A stretch of 64,000 nucleotides of DNA, taken from contig JAADHV010000097.1 of NCBI GenBank assembly GCA_013151635.1, positions 1 through 64,000 of the forward strand. The letters are read 5' to 3'. Origin of the DNA: Deltaproteobacteria bacterium. Its GTDB lineage: Bacteria; Desulfobacterota; Desulfobacteria; Desulfobacterales; Desulfobacteraceae. The number at the start of each line of letters is the position of its first letter. Position 1 is the stretch's first letter. A program made the translations under genes and the position numbers. Positions 32,416 to 40,638 of this stretch are shown here, one piece after another. Below the pieces are notes generated by a model that ran no database searches, was not told the origin of the DNA, and saw only the letters and a list, made by a program, of their open reading frames with translations.

Positions 32416-33852
32416 ATGGTAAAAAAGTATAAAGTTCTAATTATGAGGTGTGAGTCTTATGATGCTGAAAAAATTGCAGAGATTATCAAAAAGGGTATGG
32501 AAGAATTAAATGCGATTCCTACAGGAAACATTCTTTTAAAACCCAATGTGGTCATGGCTCACAAGGAGTTTTTTCCCCATGCTTTTACCCGGCCGGAGTT
32601 CATTGACGGCGTTATCGCTGCCACTAAAGGAATGGCGAAAGATGTCAAAGAAATCTCAGTGGGTGAGCGATCCGGGATCACCATTCCTACACGTTATAAT
32701 TTTAAACAGGCCGGCTATCCAAAAGTTATTAAAAAACATGGTGTTAAAACGTACTTTTTCGACGAAGTCAAACATGTCCCCTTTAAACTTAAAAAAGATG
32801 TCAATCTTCGTAACAATATGTTTTTCCCTAAACCCATTGTGGACTGTGATTTCCTGATTAACCTGCCAAAATTCAAAGCTCATCCTTGGACTCGTCTCAC
32901 TTTGAGTTTGAAGAATTTTATCGGGATTCAGGATGACAAACACCGGCTGGTAGATCACAATTCCTTTCTCGAACACAAAATAGCCGATCTGCAGGAGGTC
33001 ATTCAGCCCAAATTTATTGCAATAGACGGCATCACAGCAGGCCAGAAAATGATGTTGACACCCACCCCGTTTGATATGGGAGCTATTGTGATGGGGACGA
33101 ATTCGTGTGCGGTGGATACAGTGTGCGCACATATGGTCAATGTTGACCCCAAAGACGTTATTCACCTGAAATTGACATCAGAAAGAGGTTTCGGACCGAT
33201 GAAACTTGAGGAGATAGACGTTTTGGGAGATTTTCCACTGGAAGAGATGCAGAAAAAAACCGAAAATTTTCAATTTTGCATGGAGCACATCGACAGCTAT
33301 TTTGAGAAATCTCCTAATTTAAGCTGTACCGTCGGCACCTTCCCTGAAAAGCACTCTCCAGATTATTGCTGGGGAGGATGCCCTGGATCTCTGCAGGAAT
33401 CGATGCATATTTTCAGGGGCTTTTACCCGGAGATTGAAAAAGAAATGGGTAAAGTCAGGTATGTGGTGGGTAAGGTTGAAGGGCCACTCAACTTGGAGCC
33501 AGCTGAAAAAGTAATTTTTGCCGGTGACTGTACCAGTTGGGAAGGAGAAATTGATGGAGAACAGGTAACAATCGAAAGTGCTTACAAAACGACATCTGAA
33601 GTGGATGAGAAAAAAGCCAAATCAAACGATCTTCAGAAGAAGATTATTTCAGCAACTGCACACGGATTTTTTAATAGGAAACGATATATCCATCTAAAAG
33701 GATGTCCCACTTCAGTGGCTCAACACGTCAACTATATATCGTCCATGGCAAAAATTCCCAACATCAATTTTGACCCAAGATTGATGTTCGGTGTAAACAC
33801 CGCCTACTATCAAATGCGGTTCAAGCGGTTTTTCAATCATCTGTTTGGTTAA
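32416..33852 (+). CDS. DUF362 domain protein
   Basis: A 478-aa protein with a strong AAGGAG site. The first ~300 residues match DUF362: ILLKPNVV, DVKEISVGERSGI, FLINLPKFKAHPWTRLTLSLKNFIGI and KFIAIDGITAGQ. The C-terminal ~170 residues add cysteines (YCWGGCPGSLQE, FAGDCTSWEGE, LKGCPTS), though no classical ferredoxin CxxCxxC motif is evident. DUF362 proteins are usually associated with iron-sulfur proteins of anaerobes and are of unknown function. It lies between repeats A and B, next to a broken recombinase, so it may be mobile cargo. Confidence 0.85.
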   Translation: MVKKYKVLIMRCESYDAEKIAEIIKKGMEELNAIPTGNILLKPNVVMAHKEFFPHAFTRPEFIDGVIAATKGMAKDVKEISVGERSGITIPTRYNFKQAGYPKVIKKHGVKTYFFDEVKHVPFKLKKDVNLRNNMFFPKPIVDCDFLINLPKFKAHPWTRLTLSLKNFIGIQDDKHRLVDHNSFLEHKIADLQEVIQPKFIAIDGITAGQKMMLTPTPFDMGAIVMGTNSCAVDTVCAHMVNVDPKDVIHLKLTSERGFGPMKLEEIDVLGDFPLEEMQKKTENFQFCMEHIDSYFEKSPNLSCTVGTFPEKHSPDYCWGGCPGSLQESMHIFRGFYPEIEKEMGKVRYVVGKVEGPLNLEPAEKVIFAGDCTSWEGEIDGEQVTIESAYKTTSEVDEKKAKSNDLQKKIISATAHGFFNRKRYIHLKGCPTSVAQHVNYISSMAKIPNINFDPRLMFGVNTAYYQMRFKRFFNHLFG

Positions 33853-33974
33853 TTCTACTGGTTGATTCTTCACTATAAATCATTAGCCCATCACAAGGCG
33901 AGTTTGAAAAGAAATATTCATTCAGACTCGTCATTTGATTTACGGAATAGATATCAGGCCCCAAAAAAGGAGGG

Positions 33975-34843
33975 ATGAGATACTGTATCGCCGTCATTTT
34001 TAATCAAACCAGAAACTCAAAGATAACTTGCATTAATCAGTTTTTCAATTATCAAAAATTGAACGTTAAAAAAAAATACGATCCTGAATTATGAATTTAT
34101 CCTAAGCAGGTTTCAAAAACATTTCGGCGATGTTGAGCTATCATCTATTACCTCAGATGATATTCTGGAATTTATGACCAAAATATCTGGGAACACCAAA
34201 CAGAACACCAAAAGATTAAGATTTACACTCCTGGCAGCATTTTTTAAGAACTCTATTGATCCAAATTTCCAAAATCCATGTGATAACGCGGCACTTCGAA
34301 GACTTTTCAGGGCAAAAAAAAATATCCAGTTTAAAATCCTTGAAAAAGATATTGTCGATGAAATCATTTTCAGAACTCAAAATCAAAGAAATCGAATCAT
34401 GTTGGAACTCATGGCCCGTTGTTGTATGCGGATTGGGGAGGTTCTGAATCTGACACCGATGGATATTGAAGATCGTAAGGTTATTATTCAATCCCCGAAA
34501 AGTGGCAGTGCCTCCGAAGCTGTATTCTTGCCTCAAAAGGTAATAGATCGGATGAAAAATTATATTCGGGATAAAAAAAATTAAATCTGAGACCAGAATT
34601 TTCCCTATAACCTATGCCGGGGCAAGATTGGTTGTTAAAAAGGCAGGAGATTTAGTGAATATCAAAGTCAGGCCACATGATCTTCGAAGACATGCTGCAA
34701 CATATGCATCTCGTTCCGGCACACCGCTTGAAATTGTCAGCAAGGTGCTGTTACGCCATTCAAATTTGTCTACTACCCAAAGGTATCTTGGAAAAACAAG
34801 TGACTCAGAAGCAATCAGGTGGATTGATCATTTACATGGATAA
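33975..34843 (+). pseudogene. tyrosine recombinase/integrase interrupted by two +1 frameshifts at poly-A runs
   Basis: Three consecutive frames together encode one ~290-aa tyrosine recombinase. Frame 1 begins at ATG 33975 and ends after an A9 run (34068-34076). Frame 2 contains the SAM-like core-binding domain (ILNYEFILSRFQKHFGDVEL) and first catalytic Arg (MRIGEVLNLTPMDIE), plus the beta-strand Lys (SPKSG), and stops after an A8 run (34573-34580). Frame 3 carries HDLRRHAAT, LLRHSNLS and the nucleophile Tyr in TTQRYLG. All catalytic residues are intact. Each shift has the same sign, as if one A were added to each run. It is either a recent pseudogene, a sequencing error or a gene expressed by slippage. 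Confidence 0.8.
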
Positions 34844-34907
34844 TTCATAAATGCCCGGGTTGGTCCCACTGGATTCAATCCGGTTTATATCAGTTAACAA
34901 TTGATTT

Positions 34908-34967
34908 GATATCTTTGAGAATTCAGATCCCTGAATACTTCCAACAGGGATAATTATACTTGAGTGC
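34908..34967 (+). repeat. island repeat, copy B
   Basis: It shares two exact blocks with copy A and CAGGGATAAT-x-ATACTTGAG-x-GC with copy C. An internal inverted repeat ATCCCTG...CAGGGAT (11-nt loop) may form a hairpin. It begins 65 bp after the recombinase stop codon, the position expected of an attachment site. Confidence 0.75.
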
Positions 34968-35089
34968 TCGAAATTAAGGAGAGGTAATGAATCCTTGACT
35001 CATTGTTTCTATCGCCTTATAGTGGCATAAAAAAAATGTCGATCACACAAATTGGCTATGTTCATGATTAAAAAGGATATCATCGGAAG

Positions 35090-35545
35090 ATGTTTGGTTT
35101 AATAAAAAAAATTATTGGCAGCGGCAATGGAAAAGTGCAGACTACAGACCAAGATATTCTTACCGCCCATTTGGCGTTGACCGTACTGCTGCTTGATGCA
35201 GCCTATGCAGATGGTGAGTGCAGTGAAGAAGAAAAAGAGCATCTTGCCACAACACTTGTGACAAACTTTGGGATATCCGGACAAGAAATTGATACCCTGC
35301 TCGCTGACAGGGATAAAGAACGCAAAGAGCATGTTGGCCTTTTTCGCTATACTCGCGTTATAAACGAAAATTTTTCCGAAAAGCAAAAGATCGACATAAT
35401 GGAATCTGCCTGGCGTATCATTTTGCTGGACGATCACCTTGAAGCGCATGAGGACCACTTTGTCCACAAACTTGCAAACCTTCTTAACCTCAGCCATAGC
35501 GACTTGATCGACGCCAAACTCCGGGCACGAAAACAGCTCTCATAA
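35090..35545 (+). CDS. TerB-like protein
   Basis: A 151-aa, all-helical acidic protein matching the TerB/DjlA N-terminal-like fold: HLALTVLLLDAAYADGECSEEEKEHL contains the acidic metal-binding loop (ADGECSEEE), and a second half-repeat has ILLDDHLEAHEDHFVHKLANLL. TerB-like proteins are linked to tellurite resistance or stress and phage-defence loci, but single copies occur widely. It sits alone between repeats B and C. Confidence 0.82.
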   Translation: MFGLIKKIIGSGNGKVQTTDQDILTAHLALTVLLLDAAYADGECSEEEKEHLATTLVTNFGISGQEIDTLLADRDKERKEHVGLFRYTRVINENFSEKQKIDIMESAWRIILLDDHLEAHEDHFVHKLANLLNLSHSDLIDAKLRARKQLS

Positions 35546-35611
35546 TTATAACACAAGTAAATCAGGAAACCTTTTCTCTGTCTCAGATTTTCAATATAAT
35601 GAAATATAGTT

Positions 35612-35673
35612 TTTGAATCCTTGATAATTTCAGGGACTTAAAACTACGTACAGGGATAATAATACTTGAGAGC
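35612..35673 (+). repeat. island repeat, copy C (within the 35546-35849 gap)
   Basis: The right half CAGGGATAATAATACTTGAGAGC matches copy B at 21 of 23 positions. The left half (CCTTGATAATTT...) is diverged but alignable. It lies between the TerB-like gene and the AraC regulator. The rest of this 304-bp gap shows no ORF. Confidence 0.6.
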
Positions 35674-35849
35674 AACTAATCAATTTTTCAAGTTGATATA
35701 TCAGTAATACATAGGGGAATATTTCAAACTAAACTTGTTAGAAAATTATGCTGAACGTTGGAAATCACCGATATTATCCAGGGCTTTTTTTGTTGAGTTT
35801 TTATTAATTTCTATCCATCAAGAGCCAGAGGTAGCCCCCTTTTTAACAA

Positions 35850-36887
35850 TCAGGTTAATTTTTGAATATAGGCTTTCGGGGTTTGCCCGGTCCATCGTTT
35901 GAAAGCATGGTTAAAGGCACTTTGATCTGAATACCCCAGTATAAATGCTACTTCACAAATTGTAACGTCCTGTTTGGCAAGATTGTCAACGGCCATTTGT
36001 TTACGTGTCGTTTCAAGAAGAGTACGATAGTTAGTTTTTTCAACTTTAAGCTTTTCTTGAAGAGCACGTTTGCTTACCGCAAGTCTTTGAGAAATAGAAT
36101 CAATATCGGGTATATCCCCTTTAAAGATCACATCACTGATCAAACGCAATACCCTGTTCGACCATTCTTTCTCTTTGGGCATGGTATTCACAAGCCGTGT
36201 AGCATGTCTTTCAAGAACCTTATATAGTTCCTGATTGGCCAGCTCAATCTTTATGTCTAAATCCTTGGTTTCTATGACCAATTCATTTTTATTCTCTTTA
36301 AATATTATGGGTGCGTTGAACACTTGTTGATATTCATTTTTACCATCTGGATCGCTTGGCCCGACGTGTGTAAAGCAAACCTTTACAAGGGTCAATCTTC
36401 CCTTGCTGAGAAAGCTTAAAATAGAATAATACGTACACAAAAGCGCTTCTGACAAGTGTGGTTGGGGTTGAAAATCTGGTGAAGCAATTTCCCATGATAA
36501 ATGAGTAAACTCCCCTGTTATTTGAAACTGAGGCTGGATAATATCTGCAATAATACGATGATATCGAACAAAGACTTGAAGGGCCTTTTCAATGTTATCG
36601 CAGTTCAGCATCATAGTAAAAAGGACGCTTCCTCCAGGATAGTGTCTGGCCATCTGACGTCCGAAATTTAATCCTGGATAAGGATCTTTGCTTAAAGAAA
36701 CGATCTTCAGCCACATTGACTCAAAAGATTTACTTGAAATCCTGGCTTCACTATTTTTTAGGATGGACATATTAAAGCCACAAAATATAGCCACTTTTTT
36801 GAAGTCAACGCCTAACCTATTTGCATAGGCGTTTAAAATTTTTACCAATCCGACCGAAACAGTAGAATTTTTCCGATATTTTGCCAT
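35850..36887 (-). CDS. AraC family transcriptional regulator with N-terminal arabinose-binding-like domain
   Basis: A 345-aa regulator; ATG 36887 follows GGAG. The large N-terminal domain (LNFGRQMARHYPGGSVLFTMMLNCDNIEKAL) is the type found in OruR/VirS-like AraC proteins. The C-terminal HTH pair is DIDSISQRLAVSKRALQEKLK and VAFILGYSDQSAFNHAFKRWTGQTPKAY. It is divergently oriented from a membrane-protein/thioesterase pair, which is probably its target. Confidence 0.9.
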   Translation of the reverse strand: MAKYRKNSTVSVGLVKILNAYANRLGVDFKKVAIFCGFNMSILKNSEARISSKSFESMWLKIVSLSKDPYPGLNFGRQMARHYPGGSVLFTMMLNCDNIEKALQVFVRYHRIIADIIQPQFQITGEFTHLSWEIASPDFQPQPHLSEALLCTYYSILSFLSKGRLTLVKVCFTHVGPSDPDGKNEYQQVFNAPIIFKENKNELVIETKDLDIKIELANQELYKVLERHATRLVNTMPKEKEWSNRVLRLISDVIFKGDIPDIDSISQRLAVSKRALQEKLKVEKTNYRTLLETTRKQMAVDNLAKQDVTICEVAFILGYSDQSAFNHAFKRWTGQTPKAYIQKLT

Positions 36888-37079
36888 CAACTATCTCCAA
36901 AAAAACTATTGGATTAAAAATAACCTAAGTTTGCGCAAAAGATCAATTTATTTGTGTGAACGATCAAGACTTCAGTAAAAAAAAATGTGTATCCTATTTG
37001 CAAGTTCTGAGGAAGCATTAAATAAAATTTTTATGAGGATGGTCGATTCGTTTATTAAAAACAAAAAAGGAGATGTACA

Positions 37080-37505
37080 ATGAGCTCACAAAGAAAAATA
37101 CAGATAATGAAAACAATATGCTGGATTGGTGTTGCAGCAGATGCACTTTGGGCAATCGCTTTGGTCTTTCCCAAATTTTATGGCACCCTGACCGGCCAAC
37201 CTGATCTCCAAGTTGATCTTATCCTGCGATTGGCACTGGGTATTGCAGGAGCACTAATGGCGGGTTGGACCCTGCTTTTGGCTTGGGCAGCGAAAAGTCC
37301 TGTTGAGCGTCGAGCAGTGATGGCTTTAACTGCAGTGCCGGTTGTCGCTGGATTGCTTACAGTTACTTTGATTGGAATTATTAATGGGAATAGTTCAACA
37401 TCATGGATACTTGTTAAGTGTGGTTTTTTATTTATTGCAATGCTTTGGGGATATCATGCAGCCTCAGCGATTGCCAAGGAGGATACATATGAAATCAACA
37501 ACTAA
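37080..37505 (+). CDS. small integral membrane protein of unknown function
   Basis: A 141-aa protein with about four hydrophobic helices (WIGVAADALWAIALVFPKFYG, LALGIAGALMAGWTLLLAWA, ALTAVPVVAGLLTVTLIGII and KCGFLFIAMLWGYHAASAIA). It has a good AAAGGAGA site. It overlaps the thioesterase gene by 17 bp, so co-translation is likely. No family was identified. Confidence 0.8.
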   Translation: MSSQRKIQIMKTICWIGVAADALWAIALVFPKFYGTLTGQPDLQVDLILRLALGIAGALMAGWTLLLAWAAKSPVERRAVMALTAVPVVAGLLTVTLIGIINGNSSTSWILVKCGFLFIAMLWGYHAASAIAKEDTYEINN

Positions 37506-37905
37506 AATTACAGTTCGAAGTTATCATGTTGACCATTTTGGTCATGTTAACCATGCCCGGTATGTGGAGTTGCTTGAGGAGGCTCGTTGGCGCTACCTTG
37601 AAGAAAATCAATTGCTTGAACCTATCCATCAAGTCGGGGCCTTTCATGTTGTCGCAAAGATCACGCTTCAGTATCGACACCCGGCATGTGTAGGAGAAAT
37701 ATTGCGTTTTGAAACGCAGATTGGCAGTCGGTCCACCTATGGCTTTCAAGTGGATCAAAAAGCCTATCTGAAAGATTCTGAAAAATTAGTTGTTAACGCC
37801 ATGATCTTAAATGTTTTTATTGACCCAGAAGGCCAACCACGGTTGATTGATCAAAATATTTTAGGGATTTGGCCAGATCTTGCCAAAGCTGATAAGATGG
37901 AATAA
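37489..37905 (+). CDS. acyl-CoA thioesterase, 4HBT hotdog family
   Basis: A 138-aa hotdog protein; ATG 37489 follows AAGGAGG. The active-site signature is VDHFGHVNHARYVELLEEARW, with the catalytic acidic residue in the DxxGHVN motif. The rest, including VVAKITLQYRHPACVGEILRFETQIG, is typical of YbgC/FadM-like thioesterases, which hydrolyse acyl-CoA. The substrate is unknown. The AraC regulator, membrane protein and thioesterase form a compact accessory cassette. Confidence 0.9.
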   Translation: MKSTTKITVRSYHVDHFGHVNHARYVELLEEARWRYLEENQLLEPIHQVGAFHVVAKITLQYRHPACVGEILRFETQIGSRSTYGFQVDQKAYLKDSEKLVVNAMILNVFIDPEGQPRLIDQNILGIWPDLAKADKME

Positions 37906-37989
37906 ATATAGTTTGATCCCATTGTTGATTGAAGTCATCACGCTTGATATTTCGAAAAATGACATTCCCTTGAGTGTCGCAAACAAAAA

Positions 37990-38346
37990 CTATTTGATCA
38001 TTTTCTGGATAGTTTTTCTTAATTGTGGAAGATGGTTTTCACAAATATCAAAAATGATTTCATGATCAACTTTTTCATAATGATGAGAAACAATATCACG
38101 CAACCTCATGATATTATCCCAATTGATTTCACTATACCCTTTCAAAAATGTACTATTTTTTTTGTCAATTTTTTTTAGCAACTCGCCAACGACCTGTAAT
38201 CGCATGGCAATTGCATCAAGGACGATTACCCCGCTATCATCCAAAACGAAGTCATCCGGCAGGTTAATATTTGAAAAACGCTTGTTGATCAAATCAAGTG
38301 ACTCTGAAATCAGTTGCAAATTTTCTACAATAATTTCATCAGGCAT
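37990..38346 (-). CDS. HepT-like HEPN ribonuclease toxin
   Basis: A 118-aa all-helical HEPN (DUF86) protein; its ATG at 38346 overlaps the antitoxin stop by 8 bp. The catalytic motif is in RLRDIVSHHYEKVD and fits RX4HXY, in which the Tyr is the residue polyAMPylated by MntA-type antitoxins in characterised pairs. HepT toxins cleave RNA. Gene order (antitoxin first) and overlap match known MNT-HEPN modules. Confidence 0.9.
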   Translation of the reverse strand: MPDEIIVENLQLISESLDLINKRFSNINLPDDFVLDDSGVIVLDAIAMRLQVVGELLKKIDKKNSTFLKGYSEINWDNIMRLRDIVSHHYEKVDHEIIFDICENHLPQLRKTIQKMIK

Positions 38347-38641
38347 AAATAATTTCCTGTTCAATTCGTTCAAAAAATCGACTTTTACTCAGATTGCGCT
38401 TCCGGACAATTTCTATTTTTTTTTCAAATTTTTTTTCCATATATATCTGCAAACTCACTATCCAATCAAAGCGAGGCTCTGAAAATTCGACAAGAAAATC
38501 AATATCACTATCCAGATTTTGTTGATCTTTGGCGTATGAACCAAACAGACCGATATTAAGAACGCCGAACTTTTCTTTTAAAAAGGCTTTTTCTGCCGTA
38601 ATTAAACTAATAATTTCATTTTTGGAAAGCGCTTTATCCAT
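38339..38641 (-). CDS. MNT nucleotidyltransferase antitoxin (MntA-like)
   Basis: A 100-aa minimal nucleotidyltransferase. The active site is GLFGSYAKDQQNLDSDIDFL, with the GSxA and SDxD pattern. In characterised systems MntA neutralises HepT by AMPylating its RX4HXY tyrosine. It is translationally coupled to the downstream HEPN toxin. Confidence 0.92.
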   Translation of the reverse strand: MDKALSKNEIISLITAEKAFLKEKFGVLNIGLFGSYAKDQQNLDSDIDFLVEFSEPRFDWIVSLQIYMEKKFEKKIEIVRKRNLSKSRFFERIEQEIIYA

Positions 38642-38766
38642 TTTTTAATCCAAGTCCCTAAATATTCAAGATATTGGTAGTACTATATTTGATCGTAGTT
38701 GGTGTGTCAAATTCCAACGACCTTTTTTTGACCACTCAAGATCGGTGTTTTATCTGGGGAAGTGAT

Positions 38767-39039
38767 TCATTTGGATATGATTTTTTCATATTTTGCTTTT
38801 GTCAAAGGGCATTCCAACAGTTGATCAAAGTCTGAAACCGATAAGCCTAACTGTCTAGCCATTGAGGCATATGTCTTTCTCGGAATATTTTTACGACCTT
38901 TTGGAACTGTTATTCGTTTTGCTTTTACACCGTTTAGCTTGAACCAGCCGTTAAATTCTTTTCCGCTTTTAAATTCAATGTGAAGTTTCTTTTCCCCTAC
39001 TTTTTTAACGTCTCTTACATTAAATTGCGCATTTTTCAT
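38767..39039 (-). CDS. HicA-like small protein, third gene of a three-gene operon
   Basis: A 90-aa basic protein. The second half (ITVPKGRKNIPRKTYASMARQLGLSVSDF) resembles the HicA toxin C-terminus, which usually reads IP..KEIPRGTLRSILRQAGLS. The typical HicA catalytic GSHH motif is absent; a single His sits in KLHIEFKSGKEF. A further tail (LECPLTKAKYEKIISK) extends past HicA. It starts 2 bp after the HicB-like gene without its own strong ribosome site, so coupling is likely. It could be an mRNA interferase relative or a DNA-binding protein. Confidence 0.6.
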   Translation of the reverse strand: MKNAQFNVRDVKKVGEKKLHIEFKSGKEFNGWFKLNGVKAKRITVPKGRKNIPRKTYASMARQLGLSVSDFDQLLECPLTKAKYEKIISK

Positions 39040-39041
39040 AA

Positions 39042-39506
39042 TCAGGAGTCAATAATCAATTCTATTAAGAAATTTTTTATACTTAGCCACTCTTCAGTAA
39101 AATTGTCATCTTCTATCAGATCAAAATATAGAGATTCAATTTCAAATTTAAGAGCATCTATAGCCTCAATTCTGTCATCACCGCAACCGAATAAAGAAAA
39201 GTCAACAGTTCTAGCAATAAACCCTTCGCTATCTTCCTCGATTATCACATCTAAAGGATTTCTCAATCGTTTTGTTTCCAACATATTTAATTTGATTATG
39301 ATTGCTTCATTTTTTTTAGATTCAGCATAATTTTTTTGTTCGATATAAGTAGCAATATGAGGAATCAACTTTTCCAATTCTATACTTGTTGCTACTCCTT
39401 CTTCAGCAATCACTGGAGTTGATGTAGTGTCTGACTCATTATGTTTATATTTCCAGTCAGAAAGAGAAGAGATATCAGTGGCACTATTTGTTGCTGTTCC
39501 GGTCAT
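39042..39506 (-). CDS. HicB-like domain protein, middle gene of a three-gene operon
   Basis: A 154-aa acidic protein. Residues ~83-130 (PLDVIIEEDSEGFIARTVD, then FGCGDDRIEAIDALKFEI) resemble the HicB antitoxin fold. The ~80 residues before it are an unrelated, partly helical extension (IPHIATYIEQKNYAESKKNE), and no C-terminal HTH or ribbon-helix-helix is seen. The gene lies 1 bp from its upstream neighbour and 2 bp from the HicA-like gene. It is probably an antitoxin-like partner with an added interaction domain (inference). Confidence 0.6.
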   Translation of the reverse strand: MTGTATNSATDISSLSDWKYKHNESDTTSTPVIAEEGVATSIELEKLIPHIATYIEQKNYAESKKNEAIIIKLNMLETKRLRNPLDVIIEEDSEGFIARTVDFSLFGCGDDRIEAIDALKFEIESLYFDLIEDDNFTEEWLSIKNFLIELIIDS

Positions 39507-39507
39507 T

Positions 39508-40161
39508 TCAATCCTTTGAATTTATTTTATTCGTTAATTCTTGGCAGATACGTTTTGCCTCATCCCATTTGTCGAATAAACCAATAACACTATTATGATC
39601 ATCTTCTTCATTAAGGCTAATATTAAAATTATATGCGAGCTGAAGCATTTCCTTTTTTTTATTCTGCATCACTATGGAAATAGGTTTTGCATCAAGTCTA
39701 AATCTTGTCCCTAGGAGATCCTTGCTAAAATACCCACCAAATCGCACATTTTCTTCCTCAAGATCATTAAATAATTTTGATTGTTCATTACAAAATAATG
39801 ATCGGGTTAATTTATAGATATCTTTATCCGATGGAGTTACATGATATGTAAAATTTAGCCCAGCTGCTGTAAATGGAGTGTGGGGTAAAAGTTTAACAAG
39901 CCGACCGATTTTTGATGATAGTAATTCTTTGGTGTTTTTATATTTAGTGTTTATTGAAAATTGCAATCGATCCGGAACAATATGTAATCGAAAGTCATCG
40001 GATTGAGCTTCTACAATTACGGGTAAACACGTTGCTCCTTGCAATTCTTTTTCCGTAAAAATTTTATTTTTATATAGCCAAACTGTATTTAATATATTTA
40101 CGTTGAAGGTGGAGGCAATAATAACTATGTTACAGTCAACAAAGTCTATATCGTGATTCAT
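39508..40161 (-). CDS. unknown 217-aa protein heading a HicB/HicA-like operon
   Basis: A soluble 217-aa protein with no signal peptide or membrane helix. Its distinctive segments are FRLHIVPDRLQFSIN, LPHTPFTAAGLNFTYHV and LLGTRFRLDAKPISIVM, followed by a C-terminal helix (WDEAKRICQELTNKI). The regular beta-strand pattern suggests a compact alpha/beta domain. I do not recognise the family. It is the promoter-proximal gene, 1 bp ahead of the HicB-like gene, so it is probably essential to whatever this operon does, as a sensor, effector or structural component. Confidence 0.75.
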   Translation of the reverse strand: MNHDIDFVDCNIVIIASTFNVNILNTVWLYKNKIFTEKELQGATCLPVIVEAQSDDFRLHIVPDRLQFSINTKYKNTKELLSSKIGRLVKLLPHTPFTAAGLNFTYHVTPSDKDIYKLTRSLFCNEQSKLFNDLEEENVRFGGYFSKDLLGTRFRLDAKPISIVMQNKKKEMLQLAYNFNISLNEEDDHNSVIGLFDKWDEAKRICQELTNKINSKD

Positions 40162-40638
40162 TTTACAGTTTTTCCCAAGAATATTTTTTTGCTATGGATT
40201 ATTTAAAAAAATAATAACCATTTTTATTTATAAATCAAATATCATAAAAGATTATATAGAGCAAATTAATAATTATGATGCAAGCCGACTACTCAAGACT
40301 ACTTGCATTAGTCATAGCTTCCCCAATATTTAACAATTCAAACAGAATCTTTAAAAAACTTAAAAGCCTGTGGCCAGCCAGGAGTTGCCATATTCTGCAC
40401 CCCCAACCATAAAACACCGGAATACTTTTGATATTCCAGTTAATTTCAATTATTTTTTCAAAACAGGATGGACTACAAATGGATGGAAGGGGTGCAATCA
40501 TTTAAAGATTACGATGAGACAGGTACGGCATGGATCGGCCCTGTACAATTTTGCAAGTTCATAGTGTTGCTATAACGCATGTAATCTGATAATAACCACT
40601 TAAAAAAATAATAAATTTTTAATATTTTCCAGGTTGCC
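40162..40638. other. 477-bp non-coding region with nested inverted repeats
   Basis: No convincing gene. GCACCCC (40397-40403) pairs with GGGGTGC (40489-40495), extended by CCAT/ATGG after a small internal loop, and encloses a second hairpin GGAATA...TATTCC (40419-40437). Short peptide-like frames on both strands (for example 40468-40575) may be remnants of a decayed gene. The region marks the right edge of the island and contains the upstream regions of the 217-aa gene and PBP1A. Confidence 0.5.

Follow-up and report, generated by a model that had tools for sequence, protein, structure and literature searches.

The antitoxin of a TAC module is destabilised by a disordered C-terminal chaperone-addiction domain and shielded by a SecB-like chaperone, and a HicAB version of this arrangement exists (PMC5105189). 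There a grafted tail made HicAB depend on a SecB chaperone, and the tail is active also when attached to the N-terminus of other proteins (PMC5105189). In the CmdTAC system, the capsid protein of phage T4 diverts the chaperone, whereupon the antitoxin is broken down and the toxin becomes active (PMC11618068). The known chaperones of TAC systems detect capsid or tail proteins of phages (PMC11618068; PMC11980606). The toxicity of those HicA proteins that have been studied requires a histidine, His23, 24, 28 or 36 (PMC11594946). A survey of HicA contexts makes no mention of chaperones or SecB (PMC10865869).

The locus described here lies in a 64,000-nucleotide stretch of DNA from a Desulfobacula-group bacterium (the window). 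An earlier note, made from the sequence alone, had described three adjoining minus-strand genes spaced by 1 and 2 bp, and their coordinates and frames are borne out: all three frames are open from ATG starts, with intergenic gaps of 1 and 2 bp. The features are as follows.

39508..40161, minus strand: gene 1, the leader, 217 aa, of an unnamed family; proposed dedicated chaperone or sensor of the antitoxin; no Pfam, NCBIfam or PADLOC match, AlphaFold2 pTM 0.82, relatives head three-gene toxin operons
39042..39506, minus strand: gene 2, HicB-like putative antitoxin, 154 aa; hhalign 95.6% against HicB (PF15919 members), AlphaFold2 core pLDDT >90, no DNA-binding tail
39312..39506, minus strand: N-terminal extension of gene 2, residues 1-65 (1-40 predicted disordered); candidate chaperone-addiction segment, from pLDDT, dN/dS and co-occurrence with the leader
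38767..39039, minus strand: gene 3, HicA-like putative toxin, 90 aa; PF07927 E = 0.007, family hhalign 97% against HicA, dN/dS 0.05
38956..38964, minus strand: codons 26-28 of gene 3, Gly-Lys-Glu, with Glu28 in the column of the HicA catalytic histidine, from an alignment of leader-linked and leaderless toxins
38747..40354, no strand assigned: mobile unit, the segment common to the window and genome G005 (96%), where it occupies another chromosomal place; the sole shared segment in the compared regions (in genome G014, 38752-40275, 86%)

The accessory position proposed earlier also holds up. Fifteen congeners conserve the pbp1A flank, to about position 40550, and in the stretch compared they show no similarity to 33001-40548 of the window, to the left of it. 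A second toxin-antitoxin module, an MNT nucleotidyltransferase/HEPN (MntA-HepT-like) pair at 37990-38641 on the minus strand, belongs to this accessory stretch and lies immediately downstream of the cassette. Scans for promoters, terminators and repeats gave nothing convincing. The genome to which the window belongs, 95% complete, has neither a SecB (PF02556) nor a HicA (PF07927) match.

Gene 3 alone matches PF07927 with E = 0.0071 in hmmscan, below the gathering cut-off, and the phage 'toxin' family phrog_353 with E = 4e-4; weak matches to PF07927 are seen for 12 of the 18 members of its family. In profile-profile comparison the whole toxin family matches HicA with an hhalign probability of 97% over 69 columns, the full length of HicA, so that the resemblance first suspected from the sequence alone is substantiated; the profile of the window clade alone reaches 91.5% over the C-terminal half. 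The usual catalytic motif is absent, as had been remarked, with Glu28 occupying the histidine column. By these sequence comparisons, gene 3 is a HicA homologue that lacks the catalytic residue. Its chemistry must therefore differ from that of ordinary HicA, and it may be a weak or non-nuclease toxin. The glutamate, within GKE, is found in nine of ten leader-linked toxins, across genera, and histidine in all six leaderless two-gene relatives. Since two leader-linked HicA relatives (L256 and L215, the latter with a TIGR04255 leader) keep the histidine, its loss is a trait of this branch and not of leader-linked systems generally.

Two other groups of HicA-like genes were seen. Five two-gene HicB-like/HicA-like pairs (L126, L127, L128, L131 and L134) form a HicA subfamily that has a conserved H..YGW-type motif and is barely recognised by Pfam. 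At two further loci (L132, 1451-2799; L133, 1814-3146) a histidine-bearing HicA-like gene follows a gene of 353-354 aa, weakly DUF7946 in L133, with no HicB-like gene. The viral contigs searched hold no close relative of gene 3.

Gene 2 has no direct hmmscan match. The core of its family matches HicB with an hhalign probability of 95.6% over 51 columns, as the proposed resemblance to HicB would have it; a Foldseek search of the PDB gave nothing significant, so the assignment rests on profiles. In the AlphaFold2 model, residues 1-29 and 31-40 have pLDDT <50, a helix spans 41-61 and the confident core covers 69-150. The N-terminal extension, put at about 80 residues in the earlier note, is corrected to about 65 residues before the HicB core. 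The remark that a DNA-binding tail is lacking stands: the chain stops after the core helices, and no DNA-binding family was found. A C-terminal DNA-binding domain is not universal in HicB.

No family in Pfam, NCBIfam or PADLOC recognises gene 1 or 20 of its relatives, so that the 217-aa protein remains as unrecognised as it first appeared. Its AlphaFold2 model is confident (pLDDT 85, pTM 0.82), Foldseek finds no convincing match among solved structures in the PDB, and the best structural match in a viral library is an unnamed protein (TM 0.58). Several candidate identities were discarded. An AdoMetDC/prozyme match in Foldseek (E 6e-4, TM 0.38, rmsd about 10 A) was treated as meaningless. SecB is not supported at any level, with no PF02556 match in the 21 leaders, an hhalign probability of about 0.1% and no SecB among the top 50 Foldseek PDB matches. 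None of the 21 leaders matches the NCBIfam model TIGR04255, nor does any protein of the window genome, and only a suggestive profile score links the two families. The two halves of the leader show no mutual signal that would indicate internal duplication.

Within the order, 17 of 194 genomes carry relatives of the leader, and within the phylum 15 of 395 do; a neighbourhood survey shows them heading three-gene operons across the phylum. Among 29 machine-parsed leaders, a second gene abuts in 28 and a third in 27, one of the two misses being a contig end. The third genes are of diverse kinds: MBL fold (PF00753, 1.6e-5), HEPN (PF05168, 1e-7), HicA-like and several unnamed families. In another operon the second gene encodes a Panacea antitoxin (PF13274, 4e-18) and the third is of no known family. 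A recurrent cassette (L035-L041, L065-L069, L250) consists of a 217-aa-family leader, a gene of about 200 aa and an MBL-fold hydrolase, which is a candidate toxin. It is found phylum-wide and on a plasmid of the Bacteroidota species Adhaeribacter swui, where a leader relative with 38% identity to the L036 leader precedes a hypothetical gene and an MBL-fold gene. Searches of plasmids for close relatives of genes 1 and 3, and of phages for close relatives of two family leaders, yielded none. In L043 a transposase-like gene (503 aa, opposite strand) is inserted between leader and second gene, and in L014 (7318-9044) a leader, a gene of no known family and a HEPN gene come directly after BREX pglZ and brxL and are followed by a recombinase gene. 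For a defence role of the window cassette the evidence is circumstantial, consisting of that one relative beside BREX genes and of the adjoining MNT/HEPN pair.

The leader slot is not reserved for the 217-aa family. The window antitoxin and toxin share 61% and 64% identity, respectively, with a pair led by a 220-aa family, and 45% and 64% with a pair led by a short family, one member of which weakly resembles DUF3467 (all BLASTP). Window-type pairs are also found without any leader. Two further classes of pair, and a toxin of a third class, occur with both the 217-aa family and TIGR04255 (BLASTP E down to 8e-44). BLASTP detected no significant similarity between the leaders tested of different families. 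Profile scores among the 217-aa, TIGR04255 and 220-aa families are 24.0 and 21.5, where the highest values are 16.5 with column-shuffled profiles and 16.6 with unrelated families. For the 217-aa family against TIGR04255 the raw hhalign score is 24 (5%), against at most 15.3 in 60 column shuffles and 16.6 with unrelated families. On these profile scores the three families may be distantly related, although HH-suite probabilities of 4-5% do not establish common ancestry.

TIGR04255 is itself the first gene of compact operons (L195-L220, L079, L080) with PIN, DUF7689, aspartyl-protease-like, HicA-like and unnamed partners, contexts which suggest a toxin-guard role. We found no paper mentioning 'TIGR04255' in the PMC literature, and the breadth of leader exchange is likewise absent from the literature searched there.

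The presence of a leader goes together with the antitoxin extension. In a comparison of about 15 antitoxins, partly related, 23 residues precede the core in five leaderless pairs and 26 or 41 in a sixth (L127, start uncertain), against 54-107 where the leader is of the 217-aa family, the 220-aa family or the short kind. One of the five, L122, has no leader remnant upstream, its antitoxin starts just before the helix and its toxin carries an internal deletion. Across the 217-aa-family operons, whose sequences are partly related, the second gene is more disorder-prone at its N- than at its C-terminus in 25 of 27, and given that relatedness a p-value for this bias is not to be read literally. Second genes in TIGR04255 operons show no particular disorder at the N-terminus, and the link between tail and leader may therefore not extend to every leader.

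The cassette thus shares the anatomy of TAC, except that its leader is of another kind and its tail is N-terminal, and for this reason we propose that the stability of its antitoxin depends on the leader. On balance, it is probably a chaperone-addicted type II toxin-antitoxin module with TAC-like logic, built around a leader that has no detectable relationship to SecB. Gene 3 would be the HicA-derived toxin, with a dsRBD-like fold, and the HicB core of gene 2 would cover it, as in HicAB. The added disordered tail would make gene 2 unstable alone, and gene 1, to judge from leader-tail co-occurrence and leader exchange, would bind the tail and keep the antitoxin folded and alive. By analogy with CmdC and the T4 capsid, drawing the leader away, perhaps by a phage protein, would lead to degradation of the antitoxin, release of the toxin and arrest of growth.

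An alternative is that the leader acts directly as a co-antitoxin or sensor, with no chaperone action, completing or gating a HicA-HicB-like complex until a trigger releases it, the antitoxin being stable alone. The leader is predicted to be well folded and matches no known chaperone, and the fact that at least three or four apparently unrelated families occupy the one slot accords with diverse sensors no less than with chaperones. The co-occurrence of extension and leader within one HicB-like family, however, points to the tail as a docking and dependence site, and we consider the alternative rather unlikely. That leaders can be exchanged, and that the extension is seen only where there is a leader, is consistent with a leader acting on the antitoxin as chaperone or adaptor.

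The history of the cassette bears on whether it functions at all. It is present in three of 38 relatives searched, the window genome included, and its relatives within the genus belong to Desulfobacula sp. and Candidatus Desulfobacula maris. It is intact in a second Desulfobacula genome at 98-99% identity (leader and toxin measured) and in a third at 82-92%. In the compared regions of G005 and G014 the cassette alone is common with the window and the neighbours differ. As the cassette is 96% identical to that of G005 while the pbp1A next to it is only 84% identical, a recent exchange as a three-gene unit is indicated; by this comparison the cassette moves between Desulfobacula species as a unit of about 1.6 kb. 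Between the window and G014, the leader has a dN/dS of 0.22, the antitoxin one of 0.23 and the toxin one of 0.05; within the antitoxin the first 65 codons give 0.75 and the core gives 0.09. These values, with the two further intact copies, mark the three frames as real genes. As far as dN/dS can tell, all three are under purifying selection and maintained, while the antitoxin tail is fast-changing.

That the toxin is catalytically dead, and that the cassette serves as a decoy or antitoxin reservoir or is a remnant in decay, is consequently improbable. The glutamate in place of the catalytic histidine and the existence of decayed copies (L117, L122) speak for it, but the toxin is the most constrained of the three genes, the glutamate is kept across genera in all but one of the leader-linked toxins, and the unit was recently transferred intact. 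About as improbable is a leader that regulates, at the level of transcription or translation, an otherwise ordinary HicAB pair, as in paaR-paaA-parE: it is encoded first and could replace the lost HicB DNA-binding tail, but it contains no DNA-binding family, and leaderless two-gene relatives likewise have no recognisable tail, so that no leader is needed to replace it.

The suggestion that the locus is a derived HicAB with an extra component is thus supported by the profile-profile matches, conserved co-occurrence, joint mobility and purifying selection together. What had been named as evidence against it, namely no co-occurrence elsewhere, structures unrelated to HicA and HicB or a known housekeeping family for the leader, was not encountered.

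More tentatively, and somewhat short of an even case, the apparently unrelated 217-aa, TIGR04255, 220-aa and short, possibly DUF3467-like, families may be interchangeable non-SecB guards or sensors placed on many kinds of toxin-antitoxin pair. They would make up a large unrecognised class of modules under chaperone or sensor control, probably anti-phage, and the toxin of the HicA branch would have exchanged its catalytic histidine for glutamate and work by a different chemistry. If so, the principle of chaperone addiction extends beyond SecB, and the unannotated 217-aa family and, by exchange, TIGR04255 gain a testable role in guarding several kinds of toxin. Given what the known TAC chaperones detect, namely capsid or tail proteins of phages, the leaders would then be candidate new phage sensors. 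The histidine-to-glutamate toxin makes it possible to test cleanly if a HicA fold can be poisonous to cells when the known catalytic residue is missing. Chaperone-guarded toxin systems are themselves already known, some of them sensing viruses; the surprising part is the breadth of leader exchange.

Compared with described systems, the cassette most likely works like TAC, while strictly it is neither TAC, having no SecB, nor canonical HicAB, having no catalytic histidine. With TAC (Methylomonas HicAB-SecB, Mycobacterium tuberculosis HigBA-SecB and CmdTAC) it shares the three-gene unit, an added disordered antitoxin extension linked to the third gene, and a third protein found with diverse toxins. 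It differs in a leader unrelated to SecB by family, profile and fold search, in the position of the extension, N-terminal here and C-terminal in known TAC, in having its leader gene first and in a toxin without the HicA histidine. With HicAB (PF07927/PF15919) it shares homologous toxin and antitoxin cores. As the earlier note held, it does not fit standard two-gene hicAB, because it adds a third gene, glutamate for the catalytic histidine and the N-terminal antitoxin extension; it also has no DNA-binding tail. TIGR04255, sporadically distributed and with no assigned function, resembles the window leader in being a first gene and in having several toxin-antitoxin partner classes in common with it, and differs in showing no BLAST similarity to the leaders tested and an hhalign probability of 5%.
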